DNA from: Phyllobacterium endophyticum
GTDB taxonomy: Bacteria > Pseudomonadota > Alphaproteobacteria > Rhizobiales > Rhizobiaceae
Reading direction: 5' to 3'
NCBI RefSeq assembly: GCF_003010935.1
Contig: NZ_PGGN01000002.1
Coordinates: 620,001 to 684,000, forward strand
DNA length: 64,000 bases
The position numbers and the translations under genes were made by a program. Below the pieces are notes generated by a model, which saw only the letters and a list, made by a program, of their open reading frames with translations, ran no database searches and was not told the DNA's origin. Each line of letters starts with the position of its first letter. Within the stretch, counting starts at the first letter, position 1. Of the stretch, positions 36,660-55,878 are shown piece after piece.

Positions 36660-38762
36660 CTACGGAATGCCCATCGGACCTGGAGTTTGTGGTAGCGGGG
36701 ACGGTATTTTCGGCATTATGGGGTCGGATGTTGGCGGCAATGGGGACGGTATTTTCGGCATCGCGGGAGTGGGTATCGGAGGTATCGGGGACGGTATAGT
36801 CTTGATTGTGGGAGCGTTAGTGGACGATAGCGGGGAAGGTATCGGAACATTGAAGCCAGGAATGGGCGATATTGGGGATGGTATCGTCGGGCCTGTGCCC
36901 GAAATTCCGGGCAAACCACCTAGTACCTGCGGCAGGGGCAGCCCTCGTTCCTTGAAGAACCCCGCAAGCTCTTCGTTGCCGCCAAATTCAAGATCGCCGA
37001 TCGTCAGCGCCAAGCCGGGTTCGCCCGGGCAGTTTGTCCTGACCTGTCCTTTGACTGCCGCAGCAGCCAGCTTGCTCTCTGCAGCAGCCCGATCGTAGCC
37101 CGCCGACTCCGAGCCAAGCAATCTGGTGCTCAGGCTGGCTGCAATCCAGAGACCTCCATCATCACCTTCGACCCGTCTTGGGACGAACGCGTATTGGGCC
37201 TCGGTCCACGCCGGGGTGAACAGGAAGTGGTCGTCTCCTGCTATGACCTTGAGCGGGCTGCCATCCGCGCCACGGCCCTGTCTCCGAAAAGGCAAATCGC
37301 TCAAGAGCAGCAAATTCGAAACGGTCTGCGGGCCAAGCGGAAGTGTTATGTCTGCGCCGACTGACGGAACTCTTACCCAAGCTTCCTCGAACTCCGCTTT
37401 TCCATTTGTCTTGAGTGCCAGCTTGATGTTGCGGCAACCGATGTCGGGCTTTAGCATCACGATTGTGTTGTCACCCACCTCCCCTATTTCGAAGCGTGCA
37501 TCGAACCCCGGCTCTATGGCTGTGTTTCCGACCAGTTCGACCGTCGTACGGACACCTCTTCCTGTGACGGGGCGGACATGCAGATCTACGGATGCCTTGG
37601 TTTCGACCTTCGCATCGAGCGAAACCTTCAAGCGCCTGCCTTTGGTCCACGATATGCCGACTGCTTTCGTCACTATTGTCGCCGCCACGGCCCCTGGATC
37701 GGCAAGCTCGGCGAAAACTTCGCCTTCACCGAGAACTTCGTTTCTCCATTCGTGATCGGCAAGCCGACCGTTGAATTGCTCCGATTTGACGGTCGCGGTC
37801 CTGTTTGCAGCAGGGAGTTGGTTGAATTTGTCTTGAATAAGGCGAGCTACTGTCCCGTTTATCCAAAAAGCAATATCGGCGTCGTTCAATTTAGGTGTCC
37901 GGATTCGCTCCAGATTCTTCCGCAATCTGACAATGTCATCCTGAATCTCGGGCGGAGGCTCACCTATCATACTGCTTGCCACTCGTTTTTCGTTGAGATC
38001 CGTCAGCAGCCATATCCCGCCATTGAGGACGACAGCGTTGGCGGCGTGAATCTTTTGCGACAGGTGGTTTGGCGGTACGGCGATCTGGACCTTGATCCAG
38101 TTTTCATCTTTCGGATCGCGGACCGGAACCGTATATGTGAAATCTTGCTTCAAATCGTAGGCGAAGCTGTTTTTAAACGGGAGATCCATGGTGAACGCCT
38201 CGACGAACTTTGGCATCAGGCCAGTTTTGATGAGGTCGCTCGCATAATCCCTCGATGTGATATTGAACCATCCCCATCCAAAGTCGGGATCAAGTCTCAA
38301 CAGTGAGAGCGCGAACACCGCTTGCGCTTCGCCATTTGCTTCTTCTTTTATCCCTTTGAAGACGAGTGAGGCTTGACCATCAAACCTTACGGTCAGATTC
38401 CTTTTCTTCGAATAGGCATCGAGGCGGAGGAATGCCCAGGCGAAACCAGGTTGAACGTCGACGCTAACATTCCGCAGGTGTACGACTGTATCCTCATCTG
38501 CCTTCAATTCGGGATCGTAGGCAATTTGTGCGTCTTTCAAGCTCTCGAGTGCCGTGTTCAATCCCCGCTCCGAAATAAACAAGCCCGCTGCCCACGCTTC
38601 TGGAATCGGCTTTTGCCTGAGCAGGTTTTCGGCTTCAGACAGTGATCTCCACTCTGGCAGGGTGCGGTCGCGCTCAAAACTTAAATCCTGAAATGCCAGC
38701 CATGCGACACCCATGGCTGCAAACAAAGCAATTGCAAAAATGACGCGTGCGCCCATGCCCAT
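36660..38762 (-). CDS. Unknown 700-residue membrane-anchored envelope protein with C-terminal IPSP repeats
   Basis: I do not recognise this family. One hydrophobic helix (VIFAIALFAAMGVAWLAF, residues 7-24) anchors it, and the rest would be periplasmic. The long middle part is rich in beta-type sequence with no catalytic motif that I see; a Cys pair (CRN, NCPG) is far apart. The last ~75 residues are Pro-rich, in a 15-residue repeat that always starts IPSP. The protein is flanked by a DEDDh exonuclease (convergent) and a sugar importer (divergent), which tells little. An ATG two codons in is an equal start. Confidence 0.72.
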   Translation of the reverse strand: MGMGARVIFAIALFAAMGVAWLAFQDLSFERDRTLPEWRSLSEAENLLRQKPIPEAWAAGLFISERGLNTALESLKDAQIAYDPELKADEDTVVHLRNVSVDVQPGFAWAFLRLDAYSKKRNLTVRFDGQASLVFKGIKEEANGEAQAVFALSLLRLDPDFGWGWFNITSRDYASDLIKTGLMPKFVEAFTMDLPFKNSFAYDLKQDFTYTVPVRDPKDENWIKVQIAVPPNHLSQKIHAANAVVLNGGIWLLTDLNEKRVASSMIGEPPPEIQDDIVRLRKNLERIRTPKLNDADIAFWINGTVARLIQDKFNQLPAANRTATVKSEQFNGRLADHEWRNEVLGEGEVFAELADPGAVAATIVTKAVGISWTKGRRLKVSLDAKVETKASVDLHVRPVTGRGVRTTVELVGNTAIEPGFDARFEIGEVGDNTIVMLKPDIGCRNIKLALKTNGKAEFEEAWVRVPSVGADITLPLGPQTVSNLLLLSDLPFRRQGRGADGSPLKVIAGDDHFLFTPAWTEAQYAFVPRRVEGDDGGLWIAASLSTRLLGSESAGYDRAAAESKLAAAAVKGQVRTNCPGEPGLALTIGDLEFGGNEELAGFFKERGLPLPQVLGGLPGISGTGPTIPSPISPIPGFNVPIPSPLSSTNAPTIKTIPSPIPPIPTPAMPKIPSPLPPTSDPIMPKIPSPLPQTPGPMGIP
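36697..36884 (-). repeat. In-frame 45-base tandem repeat encoding IPSP-type units
   Basis: The 11-base core GGGGACGGTAT or a close variant recurs at 36697, 36742, 36787, 36832 and 36874, with periods of 45, 45, 45 and 42 bases. On the minus strand each unit codes for about 15 residues beginning IPSP(L/I), at the end of the 700-residue unknown protein. Confidence 0.85.
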
Positions 38763-39136
38763 GACCTGATCCCAACGCCAAATGATTACAGTGCCGAATT
38801 GATGATAGCACTTATTATACCGGCATGGGCCGACGGCAACGTTAACTTCTTTCTTCCGCCCCTACCCGCCGTCGCAATTAGAAAGCGCGCTACCAAGCTT
38901 TCCTGCCCGATGTGGCGTTTGGATACCGAATTGTGGGCGCAGTGAATAAGACGATCTTCAATGATAGTACTATATGATAAATCGATTTACTAATTGCAGT
39001 CTGCTCATTAAAGTCTCAGGGCTGAATGGTGGAACACCGTTCATCCGTTGCCGGTGATCATAGGAGGTGGCCCGGCGTCGATAACGGATTGACAACCTGG
39101 ACCAGCGAATACGTTGAGCCAAATGGGAGGTTAGAC
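38763..39136. other. Intergenic region upstream of the sugar importer
   Basis: A 374-base gap between divergent genes. It is AT-rich from about 38940 to 39010 and holds a 12-base palindrome listed separately. GGGAGG at 39125 is the ribosome site of the binding-protein gene. No gene is seen. Confidence 0.55.
38978..38989. promoter_or_regulatory. Palindrome TAAATCGATTTA, possible operator
   Basis: A perfect 12-base palindrome with central CG lies in the AT-rich part of the region upstream of the sugar importer. LacI-family regulators of sugar importers bind palindromes centred on CG, so this could be such an operator. No regulator gene lies next to it. Confidence 0.3.
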
Positions 39137-40096
39137 ATGAAATCCGCAATATCTATTGCTGCACTTTGCGCTGCGTTGATGCTTGGCGCGTCGATGCCAA
39201 TTGTTGCCTATGCCGCTGATAAGCCGACGCTGGCCTTTGTGGTGAACGGCGCATCTGACTTCTGGAAGGCTGCAGAAGCGGGTGTCAAGAAGGCACAAGC
39301 CGAATTGCCCGACTACAACCTGGAGCTCAAATATCCCGAGCAATCCTCGGTGGCCATCCAGCAACGGCTGATGGATGATCTCGTAACTGCCGGCGTCAAG
39401 GGCATTATGGTGTCAGCCGTAGATCCGAAGACGTCCACCGACGGTCTCAACAAGATCGCGTCCGAAACAGCCCTCTTCACCACGGATAGCGACGCGCCTC
39501 AGACCAATCGCATCGCCTATATCGGTTCATCGAATGTGGATGCAGGCAAACAGGCAGCGGAAATCGCAAAGAAAGCCATGCCTGAGGGCGGAAAGTGCCT
39601 TGGATTTGTCGGGCTGCTCGGCGCCGATAACGCCAGGGAACGGATTCAGGGCATGAAGGACGGTCTGGCTGGTACAAAAATCGAGCTGGTGGATGTTCGT
39701 GGAGATGACATAGACCAGACGCGTGCCAAAAAGAACGTCGAAGACGCGTTGGTCGCGAGCCCGGATGTAACCTGCATGGTTGGTTTCTACTCGTACAATA
39801 CACCTCGCATCTACGAAGCTTTGCGTGATGCAGGTAAACTGGGTCAGATCACCGTGGTCGGGTTTGACGACGATCCAATCACGTTGGGCGGCGTGAAAGA
39901 GGGCACCGTCGCCGCAACAGTGGTGCAGCAGCCGTTCGAATGGGCTTATCAGGGAATGAAGATGATGGCTGCTTACCTCAAGGGCGACAAGTCGAGCATC
40001 CCTGAAAACAAATTGCTGATCATCGATACCGTGATTGTTGGCAAGGACGATGTCGATGCTTACGCTGCCAATCTGAAAAAGATGGCCGGGAACTAA
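39137..40096 (+). CDS. Sugar ABC transporter periplasmic binding protein (RbsB-like)
   Basis: A 319-residue family-2 periplasmic binding protein. The signal peptide (ALCAALMLGASMPIVAYA) is followed by TLAFVVNGASDFWKAAEAGVKKAQAEL, the first binding-domain motif. The GVKGIMVSAVDP and TVVGFDDDPITLGGVKEG blocks are the standard hinge and ligand-side motifs of ribose/galactose/xylose-type proteins. The exact sugar is not told. GGGAGG precedes the ATG. It heads an SBP-ATPase-permease operon. Confidence 0.9.
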   Translation: MKSAISIAALCAALMLGASMPIVAYAADKPTLAFVVNGASDFWKAAEAGVKKAQAELPDYNLELKYPEQSSVAIQQRLMDDLVTAGVKGIMVSAVDPKTSTDGLNKIASETALFTTDSDAPQTNRIAYIGSSNVDAGKQAAEIAKKAMPEGGKCLGFVGLLGADNARERIQGMKDGLAGTKIELVDVRGDDIDQTRAKKNVEDALVASPDVTCMVGFYSYNTPRIYEALRDAGKLGQITVVGFDDDPITLGGVKEGTVAATVVQQPFEWAYQGMKMMAAYLKGDKSSIPENKLLIIDTVIVGKDDVDAYAANLKKMAGN

Positions 40097-40122
40097 GCGG
40101 CCATTGAACAAAGCTTGACGCT

Positions 40123-41709
40123 ATGACCGGCAATGGTTTCACCGCAATAGGTGGCGCTAACCAGAACGAAGCCATTTCGTTCGAGGTACCTTCTGACGCA
40201 CGTCATCAGGCACATTTTCTAAGCCTGCATGACGTGCGGAAGACTTATCCCGGCGTCGTGGCACTGGATGGATTCTCCATCGAAGTCACACAAGGCGAAG
40301 TAATCGGCATCGTTGGCGAGAACGGCGCCGGTAAATCGACGCTGATGAAAATCCTTGGTGGTGTGGCGGCGCCCGATAGCGGCACCATCAGAATTGACGG
40401 CACGGATCATGATCGTCTTACAGTCAAACACAGTCTGGAAGCCGGCATAGCCTTCGTCCATCAGGAACTGAACCTTTTTGACAACCTTGACGTGGCAGCC
40501 AATATCTTCCTTGGCAGAGAGCCCCTGCGCGGCGGCCCTCTGAAACTCGTAGATCGTGCCAAGCTGCGCAAAATGGTCGTACCGCTCGTCGAACGGGTCG
40601 GCGCGAATTTTAAAGCGGACACCCCCGTGTCGAAACTGTCACTGGCTCAGCAACAGATGGTGGAGATTGCCAAGGCGCTCTCGATCAAGGCAAGGCTCGT
40701 TATCCTGGACGAACCCACGTCAAGCCTCCCCACCGCCGAAACCGAGAAACTGCTTAGCGTAATAAGGGGTCTGAAGGCGGACGGTATCAGCGTCATCTTC
40801 ATCTCACACAGACTGCATGAGGTGGAACGTGTCGCCGATCGGGTTATTGTACTTCGAGATGGAATGCTGGCGGGCACATTAACCAACGACGCCATCAATC
40901 ACGACCAGATGGTGAAGCTGATGATCGGACGAGCACTAAAGGCTCGTACCAGTACGTCATCCCGCGACGCGGGTAGCGTCGCGCTATCTGCAAGGGGCAT
41001 CCGGACCACGGCCTATCCTCATCGAACCGTTGATCTGGATGTGCTGCATGGCGAGATTCTCGGGCTTGCCGGGCTCGTAGGATCGGGTAGAACCGAGTTT
41101 GCCCGTGTTGTTTTCGGCATCGACCGGAGCTTTGGCGGAGAACTGCATCTCGATGGCAAACCTATAATGCCTGGTTCTTCCGCGGATGCGGTGGCTGCAG
41201 GTATTTTTCTTATACCCGAAGACCGGAAGCTGGCCGGTATTCTTCTCGACTTCGCAATCGCACAGAACATTTCATTACCCAACCTTCCGGCGCACGCGAG
41301 CAACTTCATCGTTTCGGCTGCAAGCGAGAACGCAACTGCCGAAACGCAGCGCAGCAGCCTTGGTATCAAGGCTCCATCGATAGCGACCCGTGTTGGAACA
41401 TTGTCAGGCGGCAATCAACAAAAAGTCGTACTGGCAAAATGGTTGGCGATGCAGCCCAAAATCATGATCTTCGATGAACCGACGCGCGGTATCGACATTG
41501 GCGCCAAGGCAGAAATTTATCGTCTCATGCATGCCCTCGCCGATGCCGGTGTGGCGGTACTCATGATTTCGAGCGACATGGAAGAGGTAATCAGTGTTTC
41601 GGACCGCGTCGCGGTGATGCACGAAGGACAAATTTCCGGAATTCTGATGAAGGACCAGTTAGACCAAGAAAACGTGCTTTTGCTCGCAGTGGGCAAATCC
41701 GCAAGATAG
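40123..41709 (+). CDS. Sugar ABC transporter ATPase with two ABC domains (RbsA/MglA-like)
   Basis: A 528-residue duplicated ABC ATPase. The N-terminal half has Walker A GENGAGKST and the signature-like LSLAQQQMVEIAKAL with Walker B VILDEPTSSL. The C-terminal half has a degenerate Walker A (GLVGSGRTEF) with LSGGNQQKVVLAKWLA and IFDEPTRGID, the normal asymmetry in this family. It is 26 bases after the binding-protein gene and 24 before the permease. A non-conserved tail of about 30 residues precedes the first ABC domain. Confidence 0.92.
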   Translation: MTGNGFTAIGGANQNEAISFEVPSDARHQAHFLSLHDVRKTYPGVVALDGFSIEVTQGEVIGIVGENGAGKSTLMKILGGVAAPDSGTIRIDGTDHDRLTVKHSLEAGIAFVHQELNLFDNLDVAANIFLGREPLRGGPLKLVDRAKLRKMVVPLVERVGANFKADTPVSKLSLAQQQMVEIAKALSIKARLVILDEPTSSLPTAETEKLLSVIRGLKADGISVIFISHRLHEVERVADRVIVLRDGMLAGTLTNDAINHDQMVKLMIGRALKARTSTSSRDAGSVALSARGIRTTAYPHRTVDLDVLHGEILGLAGLVGSGRTEFARVVFGIDRSFGGELHLDGKPIMPGSSADAVAAGIFLIPEDRKLAGILLDFAIAQNISLPNLPAHASNFIVSAASENATAETQRSSLGIKAPSIATRVGTLSGGNQQKVVLAKWLAMQPKIMIFDEPTRGIDIGAKAEIYRLMHALADAGVAVLMISSDMEEVISVSDRVAVMHEGQISGILMKDQLDQENVLLLAVGKSAR

Positions 41710-41733
41710 CTGCCATGGGCTTGGGAGATCACG

Positions 41734-42717
41734 ATGAACAAAAAAGATGCTGGATTGTTGATCCTTATAGTCGTCGTGGGAGCCATCGTTGCGATGATAA
41801 ATCCCCGCTTCTTGCTACCCATCAATCTCGCCAATACAGCCAACTTGATCGGCCTCTTCGGTATTCTTTCCATAGGACAAGCGTTTGTTATCATAACCGG
41901 CGGCATCGAGCTTTCGGTCGGTTCATTGATCGCGCTGCTCGGGGTACTATTCGTCGATTTGATTGCCAATCTCGGCATGGATTGGCCATTGGCTTTCATG
42001 CTCATCCTCGTTTTGGGCGGACTGATTGGTTTGGCCCATGGCTGGCTGATCACGCGTCTGAATCTCCAGCCATTCGTGGTGACCCTGTGCGGCCTGTTGA
42101 TTTATCGAGGCATCGCCCGGTTCTATACTGCGGACGGAACTGCCGGATTTGGTTTTGGCCAAAACTTCCCCACGCTCGAATTTCTTACAGCCGGCCGCAC
42201 CTATGGAATACCGAACAGTTTCATCGCCCTTCTGATTATCATGGGCGTAACCTGGGTCGTGTTGCACCGTTCAGTCTTCGGGCGCTATCTCTACGCCATA
42301 GGCAAGAATGAAGAGGCGGCAAGATATTCTGGGATCAGGACAGGCCGAATGGTGATGGCCGCCTACGTCATCTGCGGTGTTTTGACGGCTCTCTCGGCGA
42401 TCTACTTCGCAATGTATACAAGGTCGATTTCTCCTGCCAGCCACGGTAATTTCTATGAGCTCTATGCAATCGCAGCTGCTGTGCTCGGCGGCTTTTCGCT
42501 GCGTGGCGGTGAAGGGTCGATCTTCGGCGTGATTCTCGGAACTATTCTGCTGCAAGAGCTGCAAAATCTGGTCAACCTTCTCGGTATTCCATCGTCGCTG
42601 AATTTTGCGGTTATGGGAGGTGTGATCCTTATTGGTGTACTGGTCGACCAACAGTGGGATGTTTTCCGGGCGAGACGCCGACTAAGCAAGGCCGCGCATT
42701 TTACACCATCAAATTAG
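41734..42717 (+). CDS. Sugar ABC transporter permease (RbsC-like)
   Basis: A 327-residue permease with eight to ten hydrophobic helices and the family blocks GQAFVIITGGIELSVGSLIAL, ALVHGWLI-like (GLAHGWLI), and the loop AIGKNEEAARYSGIRTG, the ATPase contact region. The C-terminal region has GGFSLRGGEGSIFG. It closes the operon and is convergent with the DUF2161 gene 43 bases on. Confidence 0.92.
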   Translation: MNKKDAGLLILIVVVGAIVAMINPRFLLPINLANTANLIGLFGILSIGQAFVIITGGIELSVGSLIALLGVLFVDLIANLGMDWPLAFMLILVLGGLIGLAHGWLITRLNLQPFVVTLCGLLIYRGIARFYTADGTAGFGFGQNFPTLEFLTAGRTYGIPNSFIALLIIMGVTWVVLHRSVFGRYLYAIGKNEEAARYSGIRTGRMVMAAYVICGVLTALSAIYFAMYTRSISPASHGNFYELYAIAAAVLGGFSLRGGEGSIFGVILGTILLQELQNLVNLLGIPSSLNFAVMGGVILIGVLVDQQWDVFRARRRLSKAAHFTPSN

Positions 42718-43612: not shown

Positions 43613-45427
43613 CTACACAGCTTCGTCGACACTCAGTCCCTCAGCCTGCAGCCGCCACATTCTGTCGAACATTCCACCTTTGGTGCGCAGTTCGGATACG
43701 GAACCGTCCTCGATAATTCGGCCCTCATTGATGACTATGATCCGGTCGAAGGATGCCAGGGTTGAGAGACGATGTGCCACAGCGATGACGGTGCGGTTGC
43801 TCATGACCGTAACGACAGCTCGCTGAATCTCCATTTCCGCCTCTGTATCGAGGGCCGACGTCGCCTCGTCGAGAATGATGATAGGTGCAGTCTTCAGGAA
43901 CGCGCGGGCAATGCCGATGCGCTGGCGCTGTCCCCCCGACAGCTTGATTCCCCGCTCTCCCACCAAGCTGTCGTAACCCTCGCCAAGCCTTCTGATAAAG
44001 CCATCGCAATGTGCAGCGCGGGCAGCTGAAAAGACTTCCTCATCGGTGGCATCGGGCCGTCCAAACCGGATGTTTTCCATTATTGTTCTATGGAAGAGCG
44101 TGATCTCCTGCGGCACTACCGCCAGGGCCTCACGCAACGAGTCCTGGGCGGTTGTTTCGATTGCCTGACCGTCAATCAGGATTTGTCCCTCCTGCACATC
44201 ATAGAGGCGCTGCAAGAGGTGGACGAAGGTTGACTTTCCAGCGCCTGATGGGCCGACGATCCCGATTTTCTGCCCGGCAGGGATTTCCAGGCTGAGGCCC
44301 TTTATGGCTTCACTGTCACGACCGTAGCCGAAGTGCACATCGCGGAAAGACACGGCGCCCGCATAAGCGATAAGTCGGGGCGCCCCTGGAAGATCACGAA
44401 CTGTCTGCGGCTGGCCTATGACGCCTAACGTGTCCTCGATAAAGCCGAGATTCTGGACAGTATCGACCAACGAGAGGGCCAAGTCGCGCGAGCCATGCAG
44501 GATCCGAAATGTGAGGGCGCTTACAACGACGACGTCACCGGGGGAAATTTGCCGTTCGCTCCACAGGCTTACCGCCCACACAAGCATGCCGCCGGCCATG
44601 AGCCACAATGCAATATCATGCAGCAGACGAGCCTTTTCGGTATACATCCAGCTGGCTCGCTGTGCAGCCGCTTCCGTTGCAAAGTGCCTGGCAAGCCGTT
44701 CCCGTTCGCGCAGTCTAGCCGAGAAGGCTTTTACCGACCACATGTTGGAGATGACGTCGATAAGGTCGCCGCCTGCGCGAGTCGCTTCTGCCGCGTAGGC
44801 CCGGTGCAGGTAACGGCCGCGCTCCCCGAAGATGAGCAGACCGATCATTATGACAAGGACAGCCGCGGCCAGTGCCAGCATCATATGCAAATCCACTGTA
44901 TAGAAAATGATCAGCGCACCGACGAAATCTACGCATGGCGGTAGGACCCGCCACACAATGGTGTTGGCCAATGCGCCGAAATTTCCTGCAGTGGAGGTCA
45001 GCCTCTGACCGAGGGACCCCGCAAGGTTTTCGGCGAAATACCGCATGGGCTGTCCGTTCAGATATCCAAACAGGTCGAGCCGCATGTCCACACCTATCGC
45101 GATCGTAACGCGGCAACCAAGCCAACCGCTGAAGCGCCACAAGAGACTTTCGACGGCAATCAGTGCAATGAAGATCGAAAGCGCTATCCAGACGCCATTT
45201 CCTTCCTGCGGACCAGCCATTGCGTCCACGAGGAGCTTCATGACGTACTGGATGGAGATGGCGCATCCGGCGGCGCCCAAGACCATCGATATCAAAGCCG
45301 TGAATTGCACCCTTCTGCCGAGGACATAGTGCCAGACAAAGGCCCATGCTCCACGGTGGAACGGCGGCTGGCGACGAACCATTGGATCTGCCTGTTTGCT
45401 TTGCGCCTGCAGTCTGGCGAACAGCAT
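43613..45427 (-). CDS. ABC exporter, fused membrane and ATPase domains (type-IV/MsbA-like)
   Basis: A 604-residue half-transporter. About six membrane helices occupy residues 25-310; the ATPase domain follows with Walker A GPSGAGKST (about 401-409), signature LSGGQRQRIGIARAFL, Walker B IIILDEATSALD and the H-loop AHRLST. It resembles lipid/polysaccharide or multidrug exporters. It is the last gene of the glycan operon, 28 bases after the GH1-like gene, so it may carry the product or its lipid-linked precursor. Confidence 0.88.
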   Translation of the reverse strand: MLFARLQAQSKQADPMVRRQPPFHRGAWAFVWHYVLGRRVQFTALISMVLGAAGCAISIQYVMKLLVDAMAGPQEGNGVWIALSIFIALIAVESLLWRFSGWLGCRVTIAIGVDMRLDLFGYLNGQPMRYFAENLAGSLGQRLTSTAGNFGALANTIVWRVLPPCVDFVGALIIFYTVDLHMMLALAAAVLVIMIGLLIFGERGRYLHRAYAAEATRAGGDLIDVISNMWSVKAFSARLRERERLARHFATEAAAQRASWMYTEKARLLHDIALWLMAGGMLVWAVSLWSERQISPGDVVVVSALTFRILHGSRDLALSLVDTVQNLGFIEDTLGVIGQPQTVRDLPGAPRLIAYAGAVSFRDVHFGYGRDSEAIKGLSLEIPAGQKIGIVGPSGAGKSTFVHLLQRLYDVQEGQILIDGQAIETTAQDSLREALAVVPQEITLFHRTIMENIRFGRPDATDEEVFSAARAAHCDGFIRRLGEGYDSLVGERGIKLSGGQRQRIGIARAFLKTAPIIILDEATSALDTEAEMEIQRAVVTVMSNRTVIAVAHRLSTLASFDRIIVINEGRIIEDGSVSELRTKGGMFDRMWRLQAEGLSVDEAV

Positions 45428-45455
45428 GACTTGGACTTTCTACATATTGCGGACG

Positions 45456-46583
45456 TCACCCCTGGCGGGCATGAGCGTCAATCAGGGTGGTCTGACGCCG
45501 AAGCTCGGCGGCAGTGGCCTGTGAGACCTTGCGAAGACCGCATTGCGTTACATCCCCCAACAGGCCGACCCGGCACAGGCGATCATTGTCCCACCCCGGA
45601 TAGTCAAGGATGGGGTATAGGCAAATGCCCGTGATCTGTGTCTGTCTTCTTTGGGCGTGCTGAACTTCCGAGGATACGTAGTGGAGCCACGCTGCACGCG
45701 CCGAACCTTCCGCGCCTGTTTCCGCAATAAGAAGGGGGCGGCCATATCGATGGTAGACTTCCTGTAACATGGTGGAGAGCCGCCTGTAGGCGTGGTGCCC
45801 GAGCGGAATCGTAGGCCCTTCAAGGTACCATTGGTTGTCGGGGTAAAAATTCACCCCGACCAGGTCCAGATATTCCGGGCTGCCACCCAGGCCCGGATCG
45901 ATGCGGCCCGACAGCAGGTCGAGAGCTTCAAACTGGGAAAGACGGTAGCACTCCGCCTCGACGACATGTTCCGGTTCGGGCGACGGGCTGTCGACGTGGA
46001 TCAGTGGCTCGGCGGTTATGAATCGTGCACCCGGATCAACATCGCGAATTGCCTCGATGCTGGCAATCGCAGCCCGCACCAGGTTCCGTTTCAGCTCGTT
46101 TCCCCTCCCGAAGGAACAAGGATTGATCCGTCCTGTCTCCCCTCCGGCCCAAGCCCAGTAGGAAATCTCATTGACCGGGCAATAGAGGGCGACATCATCA
46201 CTCTCGTTGCGGATCAATTGAGCTGCTGCGGCCGCAAACCGCGCAAAGCGCTCGACGAAGGCAGGAGACCATATGTCGATGTCATCCGGCCAGCCGTAGT
46301 GACACAGGTCCCAGATTACCTGTGTGCCGGATCGGTTGGCGGCCTTGAGCATCGGCAGGAAGCTGGACCAATCATAATGACCCGGCCTGGTTTCGATCAG
46401 ATGCCAACGAAGTCCGTCACGTGCGGTGTGCACCCCATGGTCGGCAAGCTGGCGATAATCAGTCTCAGCCCTACGGTAGTGGTCTGTTGCCGCGAGCAGG
46501 TCCAGCCGTCTGCCGTCCGGCCGGCGGTGGGTCGAACACTCGAAGCCGGCGAGGAAGAAACTTTTAAAAACAGCGTTCGTCAA
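45456..46583 (-). CDS. GH1-like glycoside hydrolase-fold protein
   Basis: A 375-residue TIM-barrel protein. The acid/base Glu is in CPVNEISYW and the nucleophile Glu in LLIAETGAEG, in the clan GH-A pattern (NE and E near strand 7); QWYLEG and PILDYPGWDNDR follow. It is shorter than classical GH1 enzymes and may act as a transferase. The TTG at 46583 is taken as start because GGAGGG lies just upstream (46590-46585 region) and the barrel begins soon after; the open frame extends to 46778, inside the preceding gene. It lies 127 bases after the fusion gene. Confidence 0.78.
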   Translation of the reverse strand: MTNAVFKSFFLAGFECSTHRRPDGRRLDLLAATDHYRRAETDYRQLADHGVHTARDGLRWHLIETRPGHYDWSSFLPMLKAANRSGTQVIWDLCHYGWPDDIDIWSPAFVERFARFAAAAAQLIRNESDDVALYCPVNEISYWAWAGGETGRINPCSFGRGNELKRNLVRAAIASIEAIRDVDPGARFITAEPLIHVDSPSPEPEHVVEAECYRLSQFEALDLLSGRIDPGLGGSPEYLDLVGVNFYPDNQWYLEGPTIPLGHHAYRRLSTMLQEVYHRYGRPLLIAETGAEGSARAAWLHYVSSEVQHAQRRQTQITGICLYPILDYPGWDNDRLCRVGLLGDVTQCGLRKVSQATAAELRRQTTLIDAHARQG

Positions 46584-46710
46584 TTTCCCTCCGTCCAGCG
46601 TTGGGCAGCCGTTTCTGCTTGTTCGGGTAAACCAGCTGCGGCCCTGATCGGCTCTTGAGGTAAGCTTTGGTGAATATCGAACAGCATCGCGCCGCTCCGC
46701 TCCCGAGAGT

Positions 46711-48747
46711 TTATTCCGCTGCCAGTTGTGATGGCCGCCACGTGACTTCGCTATCCCGGAGGAAGCGCCAAAGCGCATTCGTCAAAGTTGGCATGAGCGC
46801 GCATTCCGGTTGTCCAGGATCGCGATCTTCCGGCACTGCTGTGAGTTCCGGCCCGACGAGAGCGGGATCCAAACCCGCACTTCTTGCAATGATCTGGCCA
46901 AAGTCAAACCAGGATAGGTCGTTGGAGTTGACAAGGCACCAGGCACCACGCGCGCCGTCGATCAGGAGATCAAGCGCCGCATTGAACAGGTCTGGAATGT
47001 AAGTGGCGGAGACCATATTTGCAGGGCTCAGCGCGATTTGACGGCCGGCGGTTAGCTCCTTCAGCACACGCACGATAAAATTTTCGCGTTCCCAAGGACC
47101 GAATAACCGGCCAGTTTGTATCCGCAAGCAGTGAGGGCCTGCCGGAAATTCCTTGTCCTGCGTGAAGCTGAGCTGTGGCAGACCCTGCCCGGCCGCAGCG
47201 CGATTTGGACTACCCGGGCTGTCAGCCGAAGGCTGTGTCAGTCCGCTAAGGTCGACGATCGCCCAAACCCGGTTTCCATTCAGGTGACGCTCCAGGTCTT
47301 TGCCCGCGAGTGGACCAGGTATGACAGTATGCGCCAACCCACGAAGATTTGCGGTTTCCCTGAACGCATCGGCGACCCTGCCGGAGGCGCCAACGACAAC
47401 AATCGAGCGGGGCAACGCTACCTTGCTTGCGGCTCCCAAGCTGCGAGGCGCATAGAATCGGTGCTCACTATGCCACCACCCAGGCGTATCCAGAACCGGA
47501 TGATCGAAGGAGCCTTCCGCAGCAATCTTCCTTACCGAATGTCCCACCGCAGTCAGCCGGGGGATCGGTGAACGGATATCGAAGGCGCCAGCCTCATAGC
47601 AGCCATTGCGCCTTACCAGAAGGCTGTTCCAGTCCATCACTCCGAAAAGTGCCCAGACGGAAACGGCCCGTATGTCTTTGCCTTCGGCGCGAAGTGCTGT
47701 CGCTGCGTTCCACATCTCCGCGAGCCATCGCAACTGTTCATCGCGCGTTGATCCATGGTGGGTCTCTGTGATGGCAGTTGGCCGTCGATAGCGCGCCCAC
47801 ACTTCACGCAAACGAGCTTCGGGGCCAGTCGAGCCGGAGGGCAGCGACGTGCGGACGGCCTCAAGATCCGCATACCGGTGCCGCCCGTTCCCACTCATGC
47901 GATGACCCGGCGGGCGATTGGCGCGCCTGTGTTCGAGGAAACGCTCACTCGTCAGATAATGATTGATACCCAGTATTTCGGGTGCACACGGTTCGTCGAC
48001 AAAGAACAGGAGTTCCTTTTCAGCGATGCCATGGTCAAGGAAAACCTTGTACCAGGGGTGCGTCCTGTCTACTTGGCCCAGCAATAGATCGAATGTCAGC
48101 CATCGCCGTTCATTTTCATAGTCTGCCTGATACCGCAGAAGCGGCGTGCTGAATGCCTTTCCGAGGTCCTCGGTTTGCACAAGTGTTGCATCGGGATTGA
48201 TCGCGCGGATGGCACGCATCGCAAGGACGATCCCGCGGCATTGGTTGATCAAAGCTCTTGCGAAATCGCCCGTCGAGCGACGGTGCGGATACCAGTGTCC
48301 GTATAGGCAGCTGAACCTAGCCGTCGTCAATGGTTCGTTGATGGGGGTGAACCGGTTGATCCAGGGATAACGCGCTGCCACCTCGCCTGCGTAAGCCGCC
48401 AGCAGATCTGGAAAGGCTGGATCGAGCAGGTTGGTGTAGCGCGGCCCGCTCCCATGATGTACCAGTCCCGCTATCGGCTCTATTCGCAGCTGCCTGAGTT
48501 TATGCAGCCGCCCGTCATGCCAGCCGAAGTCCATGTCATGGGGCGTCCGCGGTGCCACGCTTTCCCACAAGACTGGGTATCGCAAAGTCTCAATGCCCAA
48601 TCGGGAAATGGATTCCAGATCGTCCAGTCTCTCCCGGTGGCCTGTTTCCACCGATTGGTCCCGCCAGCGGTTGCGGATACGCACTATGCTGCATTCCACC
48701 CCGCCCCAAAGCTGCGGCCTGTCAGCGAGTTCGATCGGCATCGTCAC
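46711..48747 (-). CDS. GH1-like domain fused to RmlD-like sugar-nucleotide reductase domain
   Basis: A 678-residue two-domain protein. Residues ~10-415 are GH1-like, with acid/base Glu138 in TPINEPL and nucleophile Glu328 in AITETHHG. Residues ~447-675 are like dTDP-4-dehydrorhamnose reductases: VVVGASGRVADAF at 450-462, LRIQTGRLFGPW and MVSATYIPDLFNAALDLL. The central segment with the Y-x3-K dyad of active reductases is not present, and this part is shorter than usual, so the domain may be structural or inactive. The gene overlaps the GT-UGM gene by four bases. Confidence 0.82.
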   Translation of the reverse strand: MTMPIELADRPQLWGGVECSIVRIRNRWRDQSVETGHRERLDDLESISRLGIETLRYPVLWESVAPRTPHDMDFGWHDGRLHKLRQLRIEPIAGLVHHGSGPRYTNLLDPAFPDLLAAYAGEVAARYPWINRFTPINEPLTTARFSCLYGHWYPHRRSTGDFARALINQCRGIVLAMRAIRAINPDATLVQTEDLGKAFSTPLLRYQADYENERRWLTFDLLLGQVDRTHPWYKVFLDHGIAEKELLFFVDEPCAPEILGINHYLTSERFLEHRRANRPPGHRMSGNGRHRYADLEAVRTSLPSGSTGPEARLREVWARYRRPTAITETHHGSTRDEQLRWLAEMWNAATALRAEGKDIRAVSVWALFGVMDWNSLLVRRNGCYEAGAFDIRSPIPRLTAVGHSVRKIAAEGSFDHPVLDTPGWWHSEHRFYAPRSLGAASKVALPRSIVVVGASGRVADAFRETANLRGLAHTVIPGPLAGKDLERHLNGNRVWAIVDLSGLTQPSADSPGSPNRAAAGQGLPQLSFTQDKEFPAGPHCLRIQTGRLFGPWERENFIVRVLKELTAGRQIALSPANMVSATYIPDLFNAALDLLIDGARGAWCLVNSNDLSWFDFGQIIARSAGLDPALVGPELTAVPEDRDPGQPECALMPTLTNALWRFLRDSEVTWRPSQLAAE

Positions 48748-51074
48748 ACCGCATGCAATTCTGATACAATCTCGGTTGGGCGGTCTCGGCTTTGCATGCT
48801 CGTCCTTGGAATTTCTGCGTCGATACGGCGAAACGTTGCCAGAGCCTGCCCCACGACCTGATCCATATTATAGTAGCGATAAGTTGCGAGACGGCCGACG
48901 AAGCGTACACTTGTGTCTGCGCGGGCAAGCGCCTCGTATTTCTTGTACAATTCGGCATTTTCTGGCCTTGGCACTGGATAATAGGGATCGCCTACATCAG
49001 ATGGATACTCGTAGGTCAAGCTGGTGCGGGGACTGATCTGTCCGGTTAAATGCTTGTATTCCGTCACACGCGTGAAGTTGTGTTCCATTGGGTAATTGAT
49101 GACAGCAACCGGTTGATGCCATTCTTCGTCGAGCGTGAGGTGCTCAAAACGCAGCGAACGATAAGGCAGCCTGCCAAAACGAAAATCATAGTACTCGTCG
49201 ATGGGGCCCGTATAAATGAGCCTGCGATACCTGATCTTCCCTTCGATCTCCTTGAAATTCGTCTGCAACATGATCTTGATTTTCGGATGGTCGAGCATAC
49301 GTTCGAACATGCGCGTGTAACCACCCGCGGGCATGAACTGGAACTTGTCTTCGAAATAACGATCGTCCCGATTGGTTCTCGTCGGAACCCGGGCAGTCAC
49401 GGATTTATCCAGTTCGCTCGGATCCACACCCCACTGTTTGCGGGTGTAGCCGCGAAAGAACTTCTCATAGAGTTCGCGGCCAACTCTGTTGACAACCACG
49501 TCTTCCGATGTCCTGACATTCGCTACTGGCTCGGCCCGCGCCTGCAGCCAGGCCTCGACTTCTTCCGATGACAGATCAAGGCCGTAGAGCCTGTTGATCG
49601 TGTCAAGGTTGATTGGGATCGGCAGCAGCATTTTGTCGACTTCGGCAAGCACCCTGTGCTCGTATGGCCGCCACTGCGTAAACAGGGAAAGATAATTGAA
49701 CACCTGTTGCGAGTTGGTGTGGAAAATATGCGGCCCGTATTGATGAATGAGCAATCCTGCCGTGTCGTAGCGATCATAAGCGTTGCCGGCTATGTGCGGT
49801 CGTTTGTCGATAAGCAGGACCTTGTCCCCACGCTGGCTTGCCAACCTCTCGGCAAGGCAACTGCCCGCAAAGCCAGCTCCTACAATGAGCCAGTCGAATG
49901 ATGCACGCCGGGCAATTCCAAGCTTTCGCGACGGACGTACCGAACGTTTCATTGCCTGCTGCATCAGCGCGTTCATATCGCGCCAGGTGGCGTCCCAGGA
50001 CATGGTAGACAGAAATGCGTCTACTTTCTGCAGCCGGTCTTCTTTTTGCCCGGTTAACAGCATCTCGGCGCGATCCACCAATTCGCGGGCGTTCTCGATG
50101 ATCTCCACTAGGCCCATCTCGCCATAGGGGCGAACGACATCGTTGATCCTGGTTGATATTACGGGCAGCCCTGCCGCCAAGAACTCCGGCGTCTTGGTGG
50201 GGCTGATGAACCGGGTCGATTCATTGAGAGCAAAAGGCATGATACCGATGTCGACACCCGCCAAGAACTCCGGCAAATCAGCATAATTCATTTCGCCCAA
50301 CCAATGCACATTTGGGCGTTGCGGTAGAGACTGCGGGTCAATCTTGACCACGGGCCCGACCATCATGAACTGCCACTGCGGCCGCAAGTCCGCGGCTTCA
50401 GCGATGAGCTCGAGATTCATCCTTTCGTCGATGACGCCAAAAAATCCCAGGCTGGTCAGCAGATCGGACTGCCGGGTGTCAGCGCATGAGCGTGCTCTTG
50501 CAAAATGCGACACATCTATACTGCTGGGGAAGCAGTGGATATTCGCATGACGTTCCCTCTTGGATTCGTACAAGGACTGTCCACCTGTAAAAACGACACC
50601 CGCCCGGCGAAACAATTCACGTTCGAGTTCTATCATTTGCGATGACGCGCCCCGAAAAGCCGACAGCTCATCCATGTTGTCGTAGACACAAAGATCGGCG
50701 CTGATGTGGCGGCTGAACGGCAGCGCCATGGGTGTGTAGTACCAAAGGATCATCCGACCAGAGGGCAAGCTTGCCAGAAGTTCATCCAGCAGGGAACGCT
50801 GCATTTTGATGATATCCATGTCGCTCGCACCAAGCGGCAACTTCGGAACAAGCACGGTCACGCCCTCCGGGGTGGTCTGGGTTTCCAGATGCGGCACGAT
50901 TGCTTCGCTGAACTGCGGCTCTTCCATGAAGTAGACGGTACGAGAACGTGCGGCTCTACTTATGAGATGCTGCGGTCGCTGATATACAAAATTCCATCGC
51001 AAATGTGAAAAACAGAAGAGAAATTCAGAGGATGCCGCTTCCTTCAGCGCGCCATGGTCGAATGTTATACGCAT
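48744..51074 (-). CDS. Glycosyltransferase fused to UDP-galactopyranose mutase
   Basis: A 776-residue fusion. Residues ~15-375 are a GT-B glycosyltransferase with the family-4-like C-terminal block SPTKTPEFLAAGLPVIST (291-308). Residues ~393-770 are UDP-galactopyranose mutase (Glf), a flavoenzyme that makes UDP-galactofuranose: the FAD-binding WLIVGAGFAGS (395-405), HIAGNAYD (427-434), HQYGPHIFHTN (444-454), RVPTRTNRDDRYFEDKFQ-region and NYPMEHNFTRVTEY. It probably couples UDP-Galf formation to its transfer. It is the first gene of a four-gene operon, with an EcfG-like site about 170 bases upstream. Confidence 0.9.
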   Translation of the reverse strand: MRITFDHGALKEAASSEFLFCFSHLRWNFVYQRPQHLISRAARSRTVYFMEEPQFSEAIVPHLETQTTPEGVTVLVPKLPLGASDMDIIKMQRSLLDELLASLPSGRMILWYYTPMALPFSRHISADLCVYDNMDELSAFRGASSQMIELERELFRRAGVVFTGGQSLYESKRERHANIHCFPSSIDVSHFARARSCADTRQSDLLTSLGFFGVIDERMNLELIAEAADLRPQWQFMMVGPVVKIDPQSLPQRPNVHWLGEMNYADLPEFLAGVDIGIMPFALNESTRFISPTKTPEFLAAGLPVISTRINDVVRPYGEMGLVEIIENARELVDRAEMLLTGQKEDRLQKVDAFLSTMSWDATWRDMNALMQQAMKRSVRPSRKLGIARRASFDWLIVGAGFAGSCLAERLASQRGDKVLLIDKRPHIAGNAYDRYDTAGLLIHQYGPHIFHTNSQQVFNYLSLFTQWRPYEHRVLAEVDKMLLPIPINLDTINRLYGLDLSSEEVEAWLQARAEPVANVRTSEDVVVNRVGRELYEKFFRGYTRKQWGVDPSELDKSVTARVPTRTNRDDRYFEDKFQFMPAGGYTRMFERMLDHPKIKIMLQTNFKEIEGKIRYRRLIYTGPIDEYYDFRFGRLPYRSLRFEHLTLDEEWHQPVAVINYPMEHNFTRVTEYKHLTGQISPRTSLTYEYPSDVGDPYYPVPRPENAELYKKYEALARADTSVRFVGRLATYRYYNMDQVVGQALATFRRIDAEIPRTSMQSRDRPTEIVSELHAV

Positions 51075-51465
51075 GTGTTGACAATACTCCTGTTCAGGCG
51101 CTGCCCAAATTAGCTCTCGGTTGCTGCGTCAGCGGAACTCCTTCCGAAGTCGCACGAATATTCCTTTGCGCCGGCGAAGCTTTCCGCCGCGCGTCACACT
51201 TGAAACGAAGAATAGAGAAGACTTAATCTGGCGTTTCGTCGTCCAAACCTAGGTTCTGTCAATTGGTTCCCGCGCCAGTTGCAAGATATTTCCGTTGCAA
51301 GATGACAATAGCCTTTTGGACGCACCCGAAGCCGCTCTGTGAGGCGCATGGCAGACGTCAAATTCAAGTGTCGCTTGGACGAAAGCGCGCGGGATGAAAG
51401 GCAGAGTTCGAGACGAATCGATCAGCTACATTTCTCGACCGTGCTCGAACAATGTCAGGCCGCCA
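51075..51465. other. Intergenic region upstream of the glycan operon
   Basis: A 391-base gap that holds the EcfG-like site at 51246-51270 on the minus strand. I see no other gene. It also lies downstream of the small lipoprotein gene. Confidence 0.5.
51246..51270 (-). promoter_or_regulatory. EcfG-type promoter candidate for the glycan operon
   Basis: On the minus strand GGAAC (51270-51266), a 16-base spacer and GGTT (51249-51246) match the GGAAC-N16-(C/G)GTT stress-promoter pattern. It would start a transcript near 51239, giving a leader of about 165 bases for the GT-UGM gene. Confidence 0.45.
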
Positions 51466-51829: not shown

Positions 51830-52867
51830 ATGTCAGACAGTAAGCGCCCATCGCCAAAGCTACACGGAGATGATCCCGCCGCGTCTTCCCAACAAGGCTT
51901 CCTGGATCGAAAGGAACTCGCGGCGGCCGCATTTGAGCGGACGAGAATGCCGCTGGTGATAACGGATGCCTGCGAGCCGGATCATCCCATCGTATTGGCC
52001 AATCACTCCTTCCTCGCGCTGACAGGATATAACGCAGACGAAATTCTGGGACAGAATTGCCGAATTCTTCAGGGCAAGGGTACTTCACCCGCTGCCATCG
52101 CTCAGATTCGCGCCACCCTGAGAGCGGAACGCGAATTGGATATAGAGCTCTTGAACTACCGCAAGGACGGCTCGAGCTTTTGGAATCAGCTTCATCTCAG
52201 CCCCATCTATGACGATGATGGTCAACTGCAATACTATTTTGGCTCGCAGATCGACGTTACCGAATACCGCAAGGTCCAAGAGCTTGAGGCGGCGGAACAC
52301 CGGTTGCTCAAGGAGGTCGATCACAGGGCCAGGAATGTACTCGCCATTGTCGACGGCATTGTCCGCTTGAGTAAGTCGGATGACGCGGCACTTTATGCCG
52401 CCTCGGTACAGCGGCGCGTCCAGGCACTCTCGTTTGCCCATGCCCTGCTTGCAGAAACAGGCTGGCGGGAGGTAGCGCTCTCTGAGATTATCAGCCGGCA
52501 AGTAAAACCCTTTGACGTGGATCAAGTCACCTTGGAGGGTCCGGACATTCTGGTTCCGGCTCCTGTTGTTCAGCCCCTCGCCCTGGTGTTTCATGAATTG
52601 GCTGTCAACGCGGCTGTGCATGGTTCTTTGAGTAGCCATTCAGGCCAGCTGCGGATTCAATGGCACGGTGTTCCGGCACGAAACGGCTTCAAACTTCTGT
52701 GGGAAGAAGTCGGCGGACCTGCCCCTTCCACTGATCGCAGGCCTGGATTTGGCACGATCATGGTCGGTGCCATCATTGAAAAGCAACTTCAGGGCGAGCT
52801 GCAACGCGTCTGGAACCCGGAAGGGCTGGTGATCGAAATCATTCTACCCCTCGTGAGCTGCGTCTGA
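51830..52867 (+). CDS. LOV-domain HWE-family histidine kinase
   Basis: A 345-residue soluble sensor kinase. Residues ~30-150 are a LOV (PAS) domain with GQNCRILQG (74-82), whose Cys77 is the flavin-adduct cysteine of blue-light sensors. The kinase core is of the HWE type: His165 in EVDHRARN, HELAVNA (255-261) and the WEE motif at 291-293, with no canonical G2 box. In Brucella a LOV-HWE kinase feeds the PhyR/EcfG stress pathway. The gene lies at the head of a stress-gene cluster. No phospho-partner (PhyR or LovR) is in the window. Confidence 0.88.
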   Translation: MSDSKRPSPKLHGDDPAASSQQGFLDRKELAAAAFERTRMPLVITDACEPDHPIVLANHSFLALTGYNADEILGQNCRILQGKGTSPAAIAQIRATLRAERELDIELLNYRKDGSSFWNQLHLSPIYDDDGQLQYYFGSQIDVTEYRKVQELEAAEHRLLKEVDHRARNVLAIVDGIVRLSKSDDAALYAASVQRRVQALSFAHALLAETGWREVALSEIISRQVKPFDVDQVTLEGPDILVPAPVVQPLALVFHELAVNAAVHGSLSSHSGQLRIQWHGVPARNGFKLLWEEVGGPAPSTDRRPGFGTIMVGAIIEKQLQGELQRVWNPEGLVIEIILPLVSCV

Positions 52868-54692: not shown

Positions 54693-54717
54693 GGAACATA
54701 CAGCGGTGGGTCGCGTT
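54693..54717 (+). promoter_or_regulatory. EcfG consensus promoter GGAAC-N16-CGTT
   Basis: GGAAC at 54693-54697, exactly 16 bases, then CGTT at 54714-54717: the full EcfG consensus. It lies just before the second DUF982 gene, whose ATG is only eight bases beyond the -10 element. Confidence 0.6.
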
Positions 54718-54725
54718 CCCTGTTC

Positions 54726-54980
54726 ATGACCAAACGCGTGTTCCAGCATGTGAATGTCGACACAGCCAATGCCGGCCGTATCTTGACGGTTGCTTCGGTG
54801 GAAGATGCGCTCGAGTTTATGCGGCGTCATTGGCCGCGCGACAAAGCCGGAAAGTTCAATGCTGCAGAACGGGCATGCCTGGAGGCGCTCGATGGCAGGC
54901 AGAGCGTGGAGGCAGCGCGCAGAGCATTCGTGGCTGCCACGCAGGAAGCTGGCCTTTATATAAAAGAACGAACCCCCTGA
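54726..54980 (+). CDS. DUF982 protein (copy 2), possibly leaderless
   Basis: An 84-residue DUF982 protein (VNVDTANAGRILTVASVEDALEFMRRHWP and ACLEALDGRQSVEAARRAFVAATQEAGLYI). The ATG at 54726 has no ribosome site, and the consensus EcfG promoter ends at 54717, so the transcript would start at or beside the ATG (a leaderless mRNA) unless the site is not functional. A downstream GTG at 54750 is another possible start. The membrane-protein gene follows after 18 bases. Confidence 0.78.
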   Translation: MTKRVFQHVNVDTANAGRILTVASVEDALEFMRRHWPRDKAGKFNAAERACLEALDGRQSVEAARRAFVAATQEAGLYIKERTP

Positions 54981-54998
54981 TCCGCTCCGGGAAAATCC

Positions 54999-55601
54999 AT
55001 GTTGTCAGATCCGACAGTTCTCATCCTCATGTATTTTATTCTGCCGGTCTGGCTGGTCGCCGGTTTCGCGGACTGGCTATGCCATCGTGCCTCCCATATC
55101 GAAACCACCACGGGAGCCAAGGAATCACTGATCCACCTCCTGATGTTCGCGGAGGTCGGGGTCCCGCTGCTTGCGGCGATGTTTCTCGAGGTGAACGCCT
55201 TGATCATCGCCGTGATGATCATCGCTTTCTTCGTTCACGAGGCGACGGCCATGTGGGACGTCAGGTACGCGACAAGTGCGAGGACGGTGACGCCTCTGGA
55301 ACAACACGTGCACAGCTTCCTGGAAATGATTCCGCTCATGGGAATCCTGTGTATCGTGTCCCTGCACTGGAACCAGTTCCTTGCCCTGTTCGGGCTGGGA
55401 CCCGAGACTGCTCGGTTCAATCTGGTCTGGAAGCCGGAACCGCTGCCCGTTGCTTACATTGCCTCGGTCATGGTTGTCATCGTGCTCTTCGAATTGTTGC
55501 CCTATATCGAGGAGTTCGTGCGCGGATGGCGCGCCAATCGGGGCCGGTTGGTTCCACCCAAGGCGCGCAAGGCGGCGCCTGGAAATACCAACCTGCGCTG
55601 A
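54999..55601 (+). CDS. Conserved membrane protein with His-rich motifs
   Basis: A 200-residue integral membrane protein of unknown family. About five helices are visible (starting LILMYFILPVWLVAGFADWL). Histidines are placed in or near helices (CHRASHIE, IHLLMF, VHEATAMWD, EQHVHSFLE), which recalls metal-binding membrane oxidases or hydroxylases, but this is only a pattern. It is 18 bases after the DUF982 copy, so probably co-expressed. Confidence 0.6.
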   Translation: MLSDPTVLILMYFILPVWLVAGFADWLCHRASHIETTTGAKESLIHLLMFAEVGVPLLAAMFLEVNALIIAVMIIAFFVHEATAMWDVRYATSARTVTPLEQHVHSFLEMIPLMGILCIVSLHWNQFLALFGLGPETARFNLVWKPEPLPVAYIASVMVVIVLFELLPYIEEFVRGWRANRGRLVPPKARKAAPGNTNLR

Positions 55602-55878
55602 GCCTGCAAGGCCAATTACAACGAACATCTCAGGTCCGTGCTGAAGGTTAGCTCCTTGCAAACATGATCGCATGTTGCCTCAGGTGAGCCGCCGCGGCTT
55701 TTCAGGAAATTTCAGGTTCCCCAACATTGCTTAAGTCGACTGCACGACCACCGGCACCTAGGATCATGGTGTCGGGGCCGTCCTCATTGCGAATATGACG
55801 ATCTCCCAAAGCAGTTTGTTTGGCCCGAAGAGAATCCGCAACCGGACTTGAGTTCGTCCAGCATGAAGGAGAGTTATC

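Follow-up and report, generated by a model that had tools for sequence, protein, structure and literature searches.

We analyzed a 64,000-nucleotide stretch of the Phyllobacterium endophyticum genome (contig NZ_PGGN01000002.1, positions 620,001–684,000; hereafter the window), in which four minus-strand genes at 43,613–51,074 form a putative galactofuranose (Galf) locus. Profile and Protein Data Bank (PDB) matches identify the first gene (48744..51074, minus strand) as a fusion of a glycosyltransferase (GT, residues ~19–375) with a UDP-galactopyranose mutase (UGM, residues ~392–750). The second, GH1a (46711..48747, minus), combines a glycoside hydrolase family 1 (GH1) barrel (residues ~12–420, with E138 and E328) with an RmlD-like tail (residues ~440–678), as seen from profile matches, alignments, and the predicted structure. 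By the same kinds of evidence, the third, GH1b (45456..46583, minus), is a second GH1 barrel of 375 amino acids with a TTG start codon. Profile matches place the transmembrane and ATPase domains of an ABCB-type ATP-binding cassette (ABC) exporter on one chain in the fourth (43613..45427, minus). An EcfG-type promoter-like site, GGAAC-N16-GGTT, lies on the minus strand at 51270–51246 (51246..51270), 196 bases upstream of the fusion gene. The first-pass annotation of this DNA had reported the four genes, and all were found where it had placed them; the promoter-like site and the spread of the gene set over several phyla are additions to it.

The mutase half belongs to the UGM family, exceeding the cut-offs of the curated model TIGR00031 (390.3 bits against 303.75) and of PF03275 (258 bits against 26.3). 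Its closest solved relative is PDB entry 3HDQ (571 bits over a full-length alignment; next best 300), the sequence of which is identical to the glf product of Deinococcus radiodurans (DR_A0367). The fusion is the single UGM match at E 1e-40 in the genome of the window. For comparison, we used 76 stretches, which were mostly retrieved via GH1 and are a biased sample in this respect; 48 of them carry a UGM, together with GH1a only (20), GH1b only (24), both (3), or neither (one, from D. radiodurans). Five FAD-binding and active-site motifs, taken by us as markers of UGMs, are all present in the window protein and in 48, 47, 48, 48, and 47 of the 48 cassette UGMs. In an unrooted tree, from which we used this one split, the 48 cassette UGMs separate from five other UGMs. 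GT and UGM reside on one protein in 11 of the 48 stretches (12 fused reading frames were listed, and L139 was removed because its annotation gives separate genes), and their distances correlate (r 0.82, n = 48), as shared host descent would also produce. The GT half is distantly TuaH-like at 91 bits; TuaH itself was rejected as its identity because this score is far below the cut-off of 550. UGMs convert UDP-galactopyranose (UDP-Galp) to UDP-Galf, and Galf is very probably the sugar made by the cassette, judging from family membership. The earlier view of a UGM-centered Galf locus with a GT is supported.

The two barrels had also been proposed from the sequence to be GH1-like, and their conserved catalytic residues agree with this assignment. 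Neither window protein matches Pfam PF00232 (GH1) at 0.001; the GH1a of a relative (L012) is over the cut-off of this family (37 bits against 22.6), and profile matches and predicted folds place both window proteins in GH1, the fold comparison being limited to chains preselected by Foldseek and barely covering the RmlD-like tail. In alignments of 43 GH1a and 36 GH1b proteins from the 76 stretches, the acid/base glutamate of the NEP-type strand is kept in 42 GH1a proteins (the remaining row is a contig-edge fragment) and in all GH1b proteins, and the nucleophile glutamate of the TEN-type strand in every protein of both groups. In the 375-residue GH1b of the window, these are Glu139 and Glu288, corresponding to 204 and 353 in the 440-residue open reading frame (ORF). 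The sugar-binding pocket departs from the classical pattern. Classical GH1 enzymes have glutamine at the first-strand position, where 42/43 GH1a and 36/36 GH1b proteins have glutamate, and the glutamate of the C-terminal FEW motif, defined from the reference row, is replaced by aspartate in 38/43 GH1a and by glycine in 31/36 GH1b proteins, leaving Asp-Trp or Gly-Trp in most of them. GH1a and GH1b are probably active enzymes with a substrate other than an ordinary glucoside. Because their cores start near the N-terminus, where a signal peptide would not fit, and because they are fused to GTs in relatives, they are most likely cytoplasmic and act on the molecule that GT-UGM makes; we consider it likely that they are enzymes of this pathway. 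An RmlD-like tail longer than 200 residues is found in 29 of the 43 GH1a proteins, 16 of which keep a YGxSK-like motif. The window protein is among the other 13, with no YxxxK in its tail, and it scores below the RmlD cut-offs (PF04321, 20.5 bits against 27; TIGR01214, 28.8 against 224.05). The RmlD-like half, previously noted as the second part of a fusion, is probably not a functional reductase, and a working reductase at this place was rejected on the missing YxxxK.

An exporter had likewise been proposed for the locus, and its class fits: from its profile matches, it is of the ABCB type, with no cargo assigned. It stays below the curated cut-offs of TIGR02203 (333.6 bits against 602), TIGR01192 (284.5 against 585.4), and NF010178 (321.5 against 733), and the names MsbA lipid A exporter and ChvA/NdvA glucan exporter were rejected on this ground. 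A homologue occurs in 16 of 36 GH1b loci, each time directly downstream of GH1b on the same strand (16/16), and in none of the 39 loci with GH1a only. This link to GH1b is weaker than it appears, since several GH1b loci are close kin. It is somewhat more probable than otherwise, from gene placement, that the ABC protein exports the product.

The exact four-gene order is rare. Among the 76 stretches, it is repeated with all modules only in L021, where GT and UGM are separate genes; L087 holds all modules in two divergent groups, and L012 shows the order GT, GH1a, GH1b, ABC. GH1b-ABC and GT-UGM are often divergent from each other, and often a locus holds one GH1 type only. Within the genus of the window, GH1a was found in 2 of 20 genomes; the second locus (L143) carries a second GT, a GT-UGM fusion, and GH1a, with no GH1b or ABC match in its 19 kb. 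The locus is patchy and modular, and the window displays one arrangement of a cassette consisting of GT and UGM, one or two GH1 proteins, and an ABC protein beside GH1b only. The four genes do not form the fixed unit that the first-pass annotation implied, and scattering of the genes in relatives, which it had named as a refutation, was encountered for the strict four-gene unit; the association of GT-UGM with GH1 holds.

This association was evaluated in 297 genomes of the order, each searched with GH1b, the GH1a protein, and the GT-UGM fusion. The UGM subfamily was found in 25 genomes, GH1a or GH1b in 26, and both in 24, with UGM and GH1 in one fetched stretch in 22 of these 24 and on different contigs in the other two (G068, G135). 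The exceptions are a genome with the UGM only (G230), a contig ending inside the GT (G250), and a distant GH1b (G210). As the search scored the best 3 to 6 candidates per genome, it may have missed some. GH1a matches at 1e-20 were obtained in 11 genomes; 6 were kept (at least 47% identity), and of the five dropped, G135 and G210 came in via GH1b. UGM matches at 1e-40 occurred in 36 genomes, and 11 were left out of the subfamily: G106 and G070 (58–59% identical and lacking a GT match) and nine at 39–47%. With G106 and G070 included, GH1 accompanies the UGM in 24 of 27 genomes.

These counts bear on the idea that the locus is a remnant of an ordinary envelope polysaccharide locus for O-antigen, capsule, or exopolysaccharide. 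UGMs are frequent in such loci, and the distant TuaH-likeness of the GT would suit one. Yet none of the 11 genomes holding only other UGMs has GH1a or GH1b, the annotated plasmid relatives examined are mostly stand-alone cassettes, and no polysaccharide polymerase or flippase was seen among the ten flanking ORFs scanned with Pfam, which encode a sugar importer, DUF2161, PAS-HWE kinase, DUF982, YflT-domain, and glyoxalase-like proteins as well as unassigned ones. We regard an envelope remnant as very improbable. The importer is a three-gene sugar ABC system (39026–42717, plus strand; binding protein, double ATPase, permease) adjoining the exporter side of the locus; a 700-residue ORF at 36660–38762 (minus) has no Pfam match at E 0.001.

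GT, UGM, and GH1 occur together in Alphaproteobacteria, Caballeronia, Deinococcus, the cyanobacterium Gloeothece, two Chloroflexi metagenome-assembled genomes (MAGs), a Bdellovibrionales MAG with a more distant UGM, and Chryseobacterium. In Gloeothece, an 808-residue GT-UGM and a GH1a-RmlD protein are plasmid-borne. GH1a alone was found in a Dyadobacter stretch and several betaproteobacterial stretches. GH1b is present in 106 plasmid records, 40 of them typed as conjugative. We link the GT, UGM, and GH1 parts because fusions join them in relatives: GH1b-GT-flavoprotein in Pantoea, GH1b-GT ahead of glf in Comamonas, and GT4-GH1b in Rhizobium. A further fusion of GH1b with an acyl-CoA-dehydrogenase-like domain in Deinococcus (L128:4860-7373, L135:7938-10277) suggests that the same molecule may also undergo a redox or acyl reaction. 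As separate observations, a 1079-residue protein with GT4, Gfo/Idh/MocA, and zinc-dehydrogenase domains (L137:4637-7876) lies in a Rhizobium leguminosarum operon, and a GH43/GH32-like protein of ~320 residues stands beside GT-UGM in nine loci (e.g., L008:4415-5374), upstream and divergent in eight.

The GH1 proteins might be turnover enzymes, with UGM and GT making a Galf glycan under stress and cytoplasmic GH1 hydrolases trimming or recycling it, much as neighboring genes synthesize and degrade glycogen. The retained catalytic residues of retaining glycosidases fit such a role, and glycosidase-type genes recur near the loci (GH2-like in 10 and GH43-like in 9 of 62 clustered stretches, GH5-like in Sphingobium and Pantoea loci); GH2, GH5, and GH43 include known Galf-hydrolases. 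The GH1b-GT fusions of relatives and the operon shared with GT-UGM in the window, on the other hand, are at least equally compatible with a role in synthesis or finishing, and we hold turnover to be possible rather than probable.

The control of the cassette was approached through the EcfG-type site. The strict consensus with CGTT occurs at 7 of 63 cassette gene heads (shuffle mean 0.2). Counting strict and relaxed matches over these heads was replaced as a test, since the reverse-strand control was high (19 relaxed and 4 strict against 36 and 7), many of the 63 heads facing a divergent cassette gene; control ORFs from the same loci were used instead. With a free first base in the −10 element, the motif is present at 34 of 40 alphaproteobacterial GT heads, at 0 of 12 from other phyla or classes, and at 28 of 420 control ORFs, a figure that may be low for real genes because the longest-ORF caller yields spurious ORFs and that includes at least one cassette remnant (L069). 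The Fisher values of 3e-28 and 9e-8 for the GT-head comparisons assume that related genomes are independent and are too strong. At GH1 heads, the motif is less frequent (GH1a 3/9, GH1b 6/26), and in G068 it lies upstream at both the UGM and the GH1 places. Because the strict CGTT is absent at the window locus, we compared the relaxed −10 element with published motifs and conducted a motif-free search over any pair of a 5-mer and a 3-mer across a gap, to which three later loci were added. The top pair, GGAAC-N17/18-GTT, was found in 29 of 35 independent upstreams and in 37 of 43 alphaproteobacterial GT upstreams overall, including the window, whereas the best pair in five shuffles, which kept base content only, reached 6 or 7. 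With three GT loci outside the 43, among which L096 matches, the count becomes 38/46. The published motifs are GGAAC-N17-20-GTT for Sphingomonas melonis and GGAAC-N16-CGTT for Rhizobium etli and Sphingopyxis granuli (PMC6599016, PMC3892343, PMC7083833). The genome of the window encodes NepR, the switch component searched for (PF18557, 56.6 bits against 25.7). Taken from the promoter motif, the cassette would in all likelihood be under general-stress control. A search for the word mutase in the main texts of the EcfG regulon studies consulted gave no hit. The DR_A0367 mutase is reported to be lower (log2 −1.13) in a D. radiodurans mutant of a heat-stress RNA (PMC7022480), which is suggestive of a stress link at most.

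Two further features lie near the promoter side of the locus. A PAS-HWE histidine kinase gene (51830–52867, plus) is divergent from the cassette, and this kinase cluster recurs in 10 of 62 clustered stretches, the window among them; HWE kinases are described as feeding the general stress switch (PMC12148442). The strict EcfG consensus occurs once in the whole window, against a chance mean of 1.08: this match, GGAAC-N16-CGTT at 54693–54717 (plus), may be a chance one by this count and is located ~110 bases before an ORF at 54830–55651 (plus) encoding 273 residues without a Pfam match.

We lean towards a self-contained pathway for a Galf glycan or glycolipid under the alphaproteobacterial general stress response (PhyR-NepR-EcfG). 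UGM would convert UDP-Galp to UDP-Galf, and the fused GT might move Galf onto a cytoplasmic acceptor. The two cytoplasmic GH1 proteins would work as retaining glycosidases on the resulting glycoside, either by transglycosylation, extending, branching, or capping it, or by trimming. Where GH1b is present, the exporter coupled to it could carry the finished oligosaccharide or glycolipid over the inner membrane. The cassette would be induced by stress, and its product might be protective. It is a tentative proposal that the cytosolic GH1a and GH1b are synthetic transglycosidases, transferring or extending from a Galf glycoside towards a general-stress glycoconjugate, with genes spread among several phyla.

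Several observations weigh against this pathway. GH1a is present without GT-UGM in many of the 76 stretches, for which reason GT-UGM-GH1 as a strict unit was rejected, and the 17.8 kb of L012 contain no match to a UGM. The UGM slot in Pantoea and Noviherbaspirillum is occupied by an Amino_oxidase-type flavoprotein; Galf may not be universal, and another sugar may be made there. At the promoter, the −10 element of the window is the relaxed GGTT in place of CGTT, and the motif is missing at 6 of the 43 alphaproteobacterial GT upstreams (L017, L077, L087, L088, L090, L136) as well as at L147, where the nearest site is ~1 kb upstream, and L078. Lastly, no exporter is found in the fetched stretch of 20 of 36 GH1b loci or of any of the 39 loci with GH1a only. 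The missing exporters would be expected if the cassette made a Galf solute or reserve that stays in the cytoplasm and protects against stress, with the ABC gene as an accessory, and the manganese catalase, ferritin-like, Ku, and LigD genes seen beside some loci may also suit a protectant. The ABC gene, when present, is invariably downstream of GH1b in the same orientation, which argues for its place in the same pathway, and we consider a cytoplasmic solute unlikely.

The general stress response aids the survival of Alphaproteobacteria in soil and on plants, yet for many of its outputs the chemistry is not known. A conserved Galf cassette preceded by a stress promoter motif would be a concrete and testable output, and the gene set suggests a stress-related sugar compound that has yet to be described. 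If true, the pathway would place the D. radiodurans mutase, well known in structure, in a biological setting, and it would supply a bacterial candidate to set beside the glycoside-building GH1 enzymes of plants. Like the first-pass annotation, which did not know the gene set as a described pathway, our literature search, mostly outside subscription papers, found no account of the set or of a UGM-EcfG link. What is new here is the arrangement of known enzyme families, undescribed as such, common to several phyla, and located behind a general-stress promoter.

Among the closest known systems is that of D. radiodurans, the UGM of which (DR_A0367, 3HDQ) is the nearest solved relative and whose gene adjoins a homologous GT gene as a GT-UGM pair. 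The two proteins are separate there, whereas they are fused in the window, and the D. radiodurans GT gene has no EcfG-type site upstream, unlike the fusion gene; a GH1b-acyl-CoA-dehydrogenase fusion is located elsewhere on the same replicon as glf. GH1 beta-glucosidases such as those of Thermotoga maritima and Thermus have the FEW glutamate where the cassette proteins mostly have aspartate (GH1a) or glycine (GH1b), and the cassette GH1 genes are placed with GT-UGM, not with sugar uptake. The EcfG regulons of S. melonis, R. etli, and S. granuli have a promoter motif similar to that of the cassette. Soapwort SoGH1 is reported to be a cytosolic GH1 transglycosidase in a biosynthetic pathway (PMC11782082). 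It sets a precedent for cytosolic, biosynthetic GH1 enzymes, likened here by description and not by sequence; SoGH1 and SFR2, a further GH1 transglycosidase, are plant enzymes with other donors and acceptors.

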